NCBI GenBank assembly: GCA_031266075.1
Contig: JAISBS010000106.1
Coordinates: forward strand, 1 to 33,976
DNA: 33,976 nucleotides
Direction: 5' to 3'
Source of the DNA: Treponema sp.
Lineage (GTDB): Bacteria > Spirochaetota > Spirochaetia > Treponematales > Breznakiellaceae
The position numbers and the translations under genes were made by a program. This document shows positions 6,054 to 26,674 of this stretch, piece after piece; positions within the stretch are counted from its first letter, which is position 1; every line of letters begins with the position of its first letter. Under the pieces are notes generated by a model that worked only from the letters and a program-made list of their open reading frames with translations, did no database searches and was not told where the DNA came from.

Positions 6054-6962
6054 CTAACTCCTGACTCCGCGCGCCCGGGCGTACACTTTTTTCAGCCGCT
6101 CGATTTCCACATGGGTATACCGCTGGGTAGTGGAAATACTGGCGTGGCCCAGCAGTTCCTGCACCACCCGGACATCGCAGCCTGAGTTGACCAGGTGGGT
6201 GGCGAAACTGTGGCGGAGACTGTGGGGGTGAATGTTTTTTTCCAGTCCCGACCGCTCCGCGTATTTACTGATGATCCACCGGACGCCGGGAACCGAAATG
6301 GCCCCGCCCTTGCGGTTCACAAACACCTTGTCCGTGGGGGCCGCGCCGTCAGGCCCCACGGCCTTGACCCGGCTGTTCCGTTCCACAAGATATTCCTCAA
6401 GGCTCTCCCGGGCCTCGGCGGAAAAAAACACGTACCGTTCCTTGTCTCCCTTGCCGATGACCCGGGCCCCGCCCAGATCGGCCTCCAGATTTGCCAGGGA
6501 CAGGGACACCAGTTCGGAAATCCGCAGGCCCGCGGAATACATCACCAGAATCAGGGCCTTGTCCCGAACGGGCCAGAGAATCCCCGCTGTATCGGGAAGT
6601 TCCGCAAAGCTGGCCATTTCCTCCTCCCGGAGATAGGACGGCAGGGCTCTGGGGGTCTTAAGGTTCCGTAAATTGCCGCAGGGGTTGTCCTGCCGGCGGC
6701 CAAAACGGATGAGCCAGCGGTAATAGCCCCGGATCGCCGAGAGGGCCCGGTTCACGCTGACCGAAGCGATCCCCTCGGCGCTGAGGTCGGCGATAAAGCT
6801 CTGAACTTCGTAGGGGCCGGCCCGCTCGGGGACAATGTCGTGGTTCCCGCAGTAGTTTTTAAAATGGGAGAGGTCTTTCCCGTAGGCATCGAGGGTCCGC
6901 GTTGAAACGCCCCGGACCGCCCCCAGATACTTCAGGTATTCCCCCATGGTGTCCTCATTCAT
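6054..6962 (-). CDS. xerD: Tyrosine recombinase, XerD-like
   Basis: Site-specific recombinase expected to resolve chromosome dimers at dif together with a partner Xer protein. The 302-residue product has an N-terminal SAM-like core-binding domain (about 1-90) and the catalytic domain with Arg147 (AGLRISE), Lys171, His247 and Arg250 (HPHSLRHSFATH), His273 (LLGHAS) and the nucleophile Tyr282 (TTQRYTHV). All catalytic residues are present. The start overlaps the topA stop by 8 bp. A second, similar recombinase lies at 10945-11862; which one is functionally XerC and which XerD cannot be decided from sequence alone. In Firmicutes the recombinase at this position (between topA and hslV) is annotated xerC/codV. 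Confidence 0.88.
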   Translation of the reverse strand: MNEDTMGEYLKYLGAVRGVSTRTLDAYGKDLSHFKNYCGNHDIVPERAGPYEVQSFIADLSAEGIASVSVNRALSAIRGYYRWLIRFGRRQDNPCGNLRNLKTPRALPSYLREEEMASFAELPDTAGILWPVRDKALILVMYSAGLRISELVSLSLANLEADLGGARVIGKGDKERYVFFSAEARESLEEYLVERNSRVKAVGPDGAAPTDKVFVNRKGGAISVPGVRWIISKYAERSGLEKNIHPHSLRHSFATHLVNSGCDVRVVQELLGHASISTTQRYTHVEIERLKKVYARARGVRS

Positions 6963-10944: not shown

Positions 10945-11862
10945 TCACAAGCCGGGGCTTCGGCTTTTTTGGGCCCTTAGATTCGGCATATACCGGCGGT
11001 GGCTTTCCCGGAGCAGGGAAACATCCACATGGGTATAGATTTGCGTCGTGGCAAGATCCGCGTGGCCCAGCAGTTCCTGCACGGACCGGAGATCCGCCCC
11101 ACCGGTCAGCAGTTCCGTGGCGAAACTGTGCCGCAGGGCGTGGAGCCGGGAACCTGTCCCCGCCAGAGCGGTAAAGCGAGTGTAGTTTTTCCAGAGTCCC
11201 TTCCGGGAAAGCCGCCGCCCGCTCCGGCCAATAAAAAGGGCGGCGCTCCGCCGGGGGCCGGCGATCAGGGGCCGGGCTTCGCCGAGGTAGCGTTTCAGCC
11301 AGAACAGGGCCTCGGGCCCAAAGACCACCAGCCGTTCCTTGTTCCCCTTTCCGGTAACCCGGGCGATCCCGCCGGGAAGGTCCAAATCCTGCAGATTAAG
11401 GCCCACGGCCTCGGAAATCCGCAGGCCCGCGGAATAGATAAGCTCGTAGACCGCCCGGTTCCGAATTCCCAGCGGGGTTCTGGTATTCACCGCCGCCAAA
11501 ATCCGCGCCACCGCTTCTTTGGGCAGCACTTCGGGAAGACGGAGCCGCCGCCGGGGGTTTTCCAGAATCGCCGCGGGGTTATCCTTCCGAAGCCCCTCGT
11601 CCACGGCGAAGCGGAAAAAAGAGCGCAGGCAGGAGAGGGCCTTGGCCGCGGAACGGGAGTCAATCAGGTCTTCCAGCCGGCGGTATTCCAAATAGCGGCT
11701 CATGTCTTCCGGCGAGACCGCCGAAACTTCCAGGCCCTGGTTTTCCAGATATTCCAGAAAACGCCGGATCTCGAATTTGTAGGTTTCCGCGGTCAGGCGG
11801 GAACGCCGTTCCAGGGCAATGAGCCGGGAATAAAACCGGTCAAGGAGGACTTGATTTTTCAC
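10945..11862 (-). CDS. xerC: Tyrosine recombinase, XerC-like
   Basis: Second Xer-type recombinase, 305 residues, with N-terminal core-binding domain (1-95) and catalytic residues Arg148 (AGLRISE), Lys172 (GKGNKERL), His241 and Arg244 ([10 protein letters not shown]), His267 (LLGHAD) and Tyr276 (TTQIYTHV). Start is GTG at 11862, overlapping the ftsZ stop by four bases (GTGA), with only a weak purine stretch upstream, so translation is coupled to ftsZ. Together with the protein at 6054-6962 it would form the XerC/XerD pair acting at dif; having both in one transcription block a few kb apart is unusual, since they are commonly at separate loci. Assignment of C versus D is tentative. Confidence 0.86.
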
Positions 11863-25821: not shown

Positions 25822-26430
25822 CTAGGCGCTTTTTACCGCGGATTGAATGACGGAAACCACCGCGGGGGCTAAAACAACCAGCAGCAGACAGAAGCCCGAA
25901 AGGGTCCGTTGGGAGAAAAAGGCCCAATAGGTTGTGGCCGCCAGGACGGGTATGGCCAGTATGGCAAGACCGGCAAGGATCAGCACCCAGGGGCGGGCGG
26001 AAGCAGCGATGCCGATAAAAAACGGAATCCCCACCGCAATGGCGGTCCAAAGCAGGGGAGCCAGCACCAGCAGCGCCGGGTCGTTCAGGGAACTCCAGCC
26101 CACCGAGCGGATGGCCGCCACAGGGATGAGCCAGAGCAGGGCGAAATTGGTAAAATCCGCGGCGCCCGACAAAAGCCGGAAGGCGGTAAACAGCAAATAG
26201 ACGAGGATGGGGATAAGGGCCGGCAGGGCTACAATGTCCACAAAGCCGCTCATCCAGCGGGAAAGACCGAAGCCGCCGGAGTGTATCAGGGGGCCGAAGG
26301 AAATCTGAAAAACCGCCGCCACGCCCCCCAGCAGAAGGGCCAGCGCTCCGCCGCTGCCGCCCTCGGCATCGCCAAGGGAGCGCCTGAACAGATAAAACAG
26401 GGGCGTCCACAAAAAGCAGAAAAGGCTCAT
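25822..26430 (-). CDS. Multi-pass membrane protein of unknown function
   Basis: The 202-residue product has about five or six hydrophobic helices (for example ALALLLGGVAAVFQISF, IVALPALIPILVYLLFTAFRLL, LVLAPLLWTAIAVGIPFFIGIA, WVLILAGLAILAIPVLAATTYW, LSGFCLLLVVLAPAVVSVIQ) joined by short polar loops with a FGPLIHSGGFGLSRW segment near residue 45. This resembles Yip1/DUF-type small inner-membrane proteins, but no family can be named with confidence. The ATG at 26430 has no good ribosome site; a promoter-like element ends 7 nt upstream. It is convergent with fba. Confidence 0.75.
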   Translation of the reverse strand: MSLFCFLWTPLFYLFRRSLGDAEGGSGGALALLLGGVAAVFQISFGPLIHSGGFGLSRWMSGFVDIVALPALIPILVYLLFTAFRLLSGAADFTNFALLWLIPVAAIRSVGWSSLNDPALLVLAPLLWTAIAVGIPFFIGIAASARPWVLILAGLAILAIPVLAATTYWAFFSQRTLSGFCLLLVVLAPAVVSVIQSAVKSA

Positions 26431-26437
26431 GGGGGCT

Positions 26438-26466
26438 ATTCTACCTCATGGGCCTTTTGCTTACAA
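26438..26466 (-). promoter_or_regulatory. Candidate promoter abutting the 26430 start codon
   Basis: TTGTAA (26461-26466), 17-bp spacer and TAGAAT (26438-26443, one mismatch) end 7 nt before the ATG. The -35 box overlaps the first hairpin of the palindrome chain at 26463-26621. Confidence 0.5.
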
Positions 26467-26621
26467 TAGAGGGAAGCTCTATTGTTCCGGCGTTTATTGG
26501 ACTTGTTCAATAACCCGGTTGGTTATCGCGGACTAAAGTCCGACACAAGTCTCGCAAAATGCTCCGCATTTTTGCTGCTTTTAAGTGGAAGTTGTTTAAA
26601 AACTGAAGTTTTTAAACAACT
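26463..26621. repeat. Chain of hairpins with a three-way-junction-like module
   Basis: Within this 159-bp gene-free stretch almost every base can pair. ACAATAGAG/CTCTATTGT (463-485) is followed by GACTTGT (500-506)/ACAAGTC (545-551) enclosing two hairpins, ATAACC/GGTTAT (510-526) and CGGACT/AGTCCG (529-542); then GCAAAATGC/GCATTTTTGC (554-575); then a perfect 15-bp stem AGTTGTTTAAAAACT/AGTTTTTAAACAACT (590-621). No coding frame of note is present. Candidates are an interspersed palindromic repeat, a structured RNA, or an insulator between the divergent membrane gene and the infC operon. Confidence 0.7.
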
Positions 26622-26644
26622 CTATTTCCCCCCATGGCGATCAC

Positions 26645-26674
26645 TGGACAAGGTCCCCATAAATTCGGTACAAT
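26645..26674 (+). promoter_or_regulatory. Sigma-70 promoter of the infC operon
   Basis: TGGACA (26645-26650), 18-bp spacer, TACAAT (26669-26674); each hexamer has one mismatch. The predicted leader from about 26681 is about 60 nt and can form a GCCCC/GGGGC stem before the AGGAGG ribosome site. Confidence 0.6.

Follow-up and report, generated by a model that had tools for sequence, protein, structure and literature searches.

A modular, palindrome-rich MITE with IS5-like ends upstream of infC in a Treponema genome

Introduction

Why should nearly all of a short gene-free stretch in front of infC be able to pair with itself? The question arises from a 33,976-nt stretch of Treponema sp. DNA (contig JAISBS010000106.1, positions 1 to 33,976, forward strand; hereafter the window), in which a sequence-only reading had described a 159-bp chain of five hairpins with a three-way-junction-like module, and had proposed either a structured RNA or a family of interspersed palindromic elements. 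We find that positions 26499-26623 are a MITE, a non-autonomous DNA transposon related to the IS5 family, which is an "ordinary kind of element" of unusually modular hairpin build.

Results

All the pairings claimed for the region are present in the sequence, and it folds with z = -5.76 and -5.78 on the two strands, none of 200 shuffled sequences being as stable. The features of the locus are the following.

26463-26485, +: separate hairpin ACAATAGAG/CTCTATTGT, perfect over 9 bp, outside the repeat, single occurrence in the genome
26496-26498, no strand: left target-site duplication ATT (from sequence and duplication statistics)
26499-26623, +: MITE copy of 125 bp, of the subfamily whose hairpin A holds an additional palindrome; about 40 own-genome copies, ends set from the flanking duplications
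26499-26508, +: left terminal inverted repeat GGACTTGTTC, matching the ends of relatives' IS5-family elements (AGACTTGTTC)
26500-26551, +: hairpin A, its 3' arm broken by a small palindrome (the three-way junction of the earlier reading); uninterrupted in other copies
26500-26506 with 26545-26551: stem GACTTGT/ACAAGTC
26529-26542, +: inserted palindrome module CGGACTAAAGTCCG
26554-26574, +: middle hairpin GCAAAATGC tcc GCATTTTTGC, with core AAAATGC/GCATTTT at 26556-26572
26590-26621, +: hairpin B at the right end, a palindrome AGTTGTTTAAAAACT/AGTTTTTAAACAACT with covarying pairs
26614-26623, -: right terminal inverted repeat, AGAGTTGTTT on the - strand (from sequence and aligned ends)
26624-26626, no strand: right target-site duplication ATT (same basis as the left)
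26645-26674, +: predicted infC promoter TGGACA-18-TACAAT, just downstream of the insertion

A search of the own genome (G000) with positions 26440-26640 as query returned about 40 substantial matches, most of them spanning query positions ~57 to ~188, that is, about 26496-26627 of the window. A congener (G001) holds about 40 copies too, and of 120 genomes sampled from the same bacterial family 65 gave matches at E <= 1e-8, which bears out the proposal of a family of interspersed palindromic elements. The order-level sample of 149 genomes, which consists partly of family members, gave 21 positives, all in that family, and we did not see the repeat outside the family among the sampled genomes. 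The left hairpin also occurs in named records; these are Treponema and Spirochaetaceae MAGs, which we take to come from the termite gut. Since some own-genome copies are 97-99% identical and several matches are cut off by contig ends that fall inside copies, amplification was recent. Five own-genome contigs (C11, C60, C97, C99 and C88) start or stop within MITE copies, and therefore the repeat probably breaks the assembly; on another (C66, 16141-17015) three copies lie inside 900 bp.

We oriented and de-duplicated copies from many contigs, obtaining 141, which start with GGACTTGTTC and finish with AACAACTCT apart from minor variants. Both flanks were present in 121, and in nearly all of these ANT forms the left flank and likewise the right. 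The base N is the same on both sides in 101 of the 121 copies against 57 expected, a value that none of 100,000 permutations reached, and the complete 3-bp flanks are identical in 96 (18 of 22 in the own genome). Positions further outward agree only about as often as expected, and the duplication is therefore 3 bp long. Read by hand, the window copy is GTTT-ATT-[125 bp]-ATT-TCCC, which places the element at 26499-26623. Its terminal inverted repeats are imperfect (GGACTTGTTC / AGAGTTGTTC, equal by eye at 8 of 10 positions), and no transposase gene was found in six-frame translations of the 125 bp.

The 159-bp stretch is thus paired as had been claimed but is not one unit, the repeat covering 26499-26623 and being flanked left and right by 3 bp of duplicated target. 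The outer 9-bp hairpin exists but does not belong to it, because the matches of other copies start at about 26496 and the own-genome search for this hairpin returned only itself; it could be a decayed MITE remnant or chance. Its tips, AATAGAG/CTCTATT, look like a MITE end beside its duplication, and the whole hairpin (ACAATAGAG-GGAAG-CTCTATTGT) overlaps TTGTAA, the -35 predicted for the divergent ORF 25822-26430 (- strand).

A motif similar to the predicted infC promoter lies upstream of infC in the congener and in several relatives; the insertion therefore sits just upstream of the promoter and, in agreement with the earlier reading, outside the predicted infC transcript. In the congener the infC upstream region is short, running from the divergent start to the infC promoter without the element, and thus provides an empty site. 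We saw no element in the infC upstream stretches of the other relatives that were read. By an ORF heuristic, 85 of 86 copies are intergenic, and their orientation relative to neighbouring ORFs shows no preference (27, 24, 17, 16).

In the basic unit of the family, ~109-110 bp long, hairpin A, with 16-bp arms, is followed by the middle hairpin AAAATGC tcc GCATTTT, then by a spacer, and last by hairpin B, whose arms measure 14-15 bp. In other copies (for example L027 and L021) hairpin A is perfect and uninterrupted, while the window copy, like 17 of the 30 own-genome copies inspected by eye, carries the palindrome CGGACTAAAGTCCG within the 3' arm, hence its three-way-junction look. The 7-bp stem enclosing two hairpins does pair, but it is a derived form of a single 16-bp hairpin and not the basic architecture, and the three-way junction characterizes a subfamily. 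Likewise, the 9-bp middle hairpin holds as a stem that is perfect for 7 bp and reaches 9 bp only with a bulge, whereas the perfect 15-bp hairpin was described correctly.

These modules vary extensively. The CGGACTAAAGTCCG module is loop-flipped or varied in other species, and other copies bear different modules at the hairpin A insert site or in the middle, where some have the middle hairpin swapped for other hairpins. The loops of hairpin B read TTCA in 8 cases against TGAA in 74, some being apparently flipped relative to the ends. Four related elements (L111, L116, L145, L236) keep the ends and have a different middle palindrome or added palindromes. In three places a palindrome stands alone, 36-39 bp long, with IS5-like ends and a matching ANT duplication of its own (L059 1047-1082, L087 654-689, L238 1747-1785); the one in L087 is near-identical to hairpin B. 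These solo palindromes are perhaps the smallest mobile units of the system.

To find partner elements, transposase loci were collected across the family with PF13586 and PF01609, and their flanks were scanned for MITE ends. This led to an 889-bp element (L207) with ends AGACTTGTTCGAGAACCC / AGACTTGTTCGACAACCC and the target duplication ATT/ATT. Two overlapping reading frames of L207 match HTH_Tnp_4 (PF13613) and DDE_Tnp_4 (PF13359) above cut-off; against the IS5-family model NF033581 they reach E = 4e-29, each frame alone lying below the curated cut-off. A run of A at the overlap would fit a frameshift. Further complete copies measure 888 bp (L212) and 894 bp (L213), both flanked by AAT/AAT, so that complete copies in relatives span 888-894 bp, about 890 bp; another copy (L215) has differing flanks, ACT/AAT. 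In a protein search, relatives turned up in 23 of 149 genomes, and many of their ends read AGACTTGTTYRNTAACC or close to it, adjoining ANT. Compared by eye, L207 and the left end of the MITE are alike at 15 of 18 positions. Similarity is limited to about the outer 17 bp, and therefore none of the sampled ISs yields the MITE by simple internal deletion.

The autonomous partners with MITE-like ends are thus IS copies that other members of the bacterial family carry. We did not find a DDE_Tnp_4 gene in the own genome, in the congener or in G180, while G179 has two; as the own genome is only 70% complete, absence there is weak evidence. The PF13586 search gave no matches in the own genome or the congener. 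The sole PF01609/DDE_Tnp_1 ORF of the own genome (L149, C4 7572-8120, 440 aa) was rejected as a candidate, no MITE-like ends lying nearby.

Elsewhere in the window, two 120-nt stretches (6106-6225 and 11024-11143) are 73% alike, and a 29-nt pair at 6514 and 11411 is 97% alike; these may be paralogous genes.

Discussion

Considering the repeat family, its duplicated target and the IS5 elements with matching ends, we hold it to be very likely that 26499-26623 is a MITE that a DDE transposase of the IS5 family inserted in trans at an ANT site. The insertion point lies between the divergent promoters of infC and of a membrane-protein gene. The MITE probably owes its movement to transposases of the IS5 type from related species, and the lineage found in relatives may have moved the window copy itself.

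A structured regulatory or small RNA, or a bidirectional terminator, that merely happens to be multi-copy is, on the other hand, very unlikely, even though the very stable fold would suit it and the arms do covary. Among 68 distinct core copies, compared with column shuffles and slid pairings as controls, 95.2% of cells pair (99% for the middle hairpin), and both sides have changed in 7 pairs and 62 cells, against 4.1 and 28 when shuffled and 0-3 cells when slid, so that covariation exceeds both controls; since the copies are related, these counts are not a formal probability. Selection on a transcript of one strand would make the wobble pairs of that strand outnumber those of the reverse. Mismatches were G.T in 18 and A.C in 31 cases (p = 0.09; 12 versus 14 as types per position), an unclear difference that indicates no clear wobble tolerance on either strand and singles out no strand. 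Moreover, the Rfam scan gave no match, a terminator-like site is absent, the copies lack orientation bias, and the target duplications and the empty site speak for mobility. The structured RNA of the earlier reading is therefore not supported. Covariation of the arms is to be expected wherever replication or repair keeps a DNA palindrome perfect, and alone it does not show an RNA. Because the copies lie between genes with no bias towards either strand, and the two mismatch classes do not clearly differ, we favour upkeep of the palindromes at the DNA level over a functional RNA. Template switching, or the demands of transposition on palindromic DNA, may have kept the arms complementary, instead of selection on a transcript.

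An element of the REP or IS200-IS605 type, which a Y1 tyrosine transposase moves in single-stranded form, would look similar: REPs and IS605-derived elements have terminal hairpins and spread between genes, as the present repeat does with its hairpins at both ends. However, IS605-type insertion leaves no target duplication, while here a 3-bp duplication is clear, and elements with the same ends encode DDE transposases, making such an origin extremely improbable. Finally, a chance cluster of inverted repeats before infC may account for the unique outer 9-bp hairpin, but for the region as a whole its probability is practically nil given a fold z of about -5.8 on both strands and dozens of copies elsewhere, and the nesting had rightly been called unlikely by chance.

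How the modular build arose is a separate matter. The solo palindromes with matching duplications and the loop-flipped or replaced modules fit a family of interchangeable mobile hairpins, in which each 36-44-bp end palindrome could transpose alone, larger elements would be composites with modules swapped or flipped, and the architecture would be kept by palindrome correction at the DNA level. We put this forward tentatively, as a possible but rather doubtful account; the solo palindromes may instead reflect internal deletion after insertion.

With the IS elements of its relatives, which belong to the IS5 family (HTH_Tnp_4/DDE_Tnp_4; perhaps ISL2-like, e.g. ISCaa3), the MITE has terminal repeats and the ANT duplication in common; in contrast to them it lacks a transposase ORF and shares only the ends. 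ANT duplications are, we assume, made by the ISL2 group of IS5. Elements of that group are ~915 bp long and have two overlapping ORFs joined by a -1 frameshift (PMC3196728). Prokaryotic MITEs in general have terminal repeats, lie between genes and are predicted to fold stably (PMC10969869), and short interspersed repeats have been described in Streptococcus pneumoniae as RUP and BOX (PMC3049150). The present family is likewise a short interspersed repeat, comparable to these and to QMITE2 of Coxiella, but here both ends are complete palindromes and copies exchange hairpin modules with one another. BOX is itself modular, and the sequences of RUP, BOX and QMITE2 are presumably unrelated to this MITE. 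REP/BIME and other extragenic palindromes also form palindrome chains between genes, but REPs are associated with tyrosine transposases (PMC2817692), whereas this MITE has IS5-type ends and a duplication of 3 bp.

A limited search of the open-access literature gave no description of this MITE family, and Treponema is absent from the text of a 2024 review of MITEs (PMC10969869). It is thus apparently an undescribed, IS5-related family, widespread in one family of spirochaetes and with its likely transposase partners identified. A striking folded region is thereby explained as mobile DNA, with the caution that covariation in such repeats is no proof of an RNA. The hairpin variants form a natural series bearing on the lower size limit of a transposon substrate and on the degree to which it can be palindromic.
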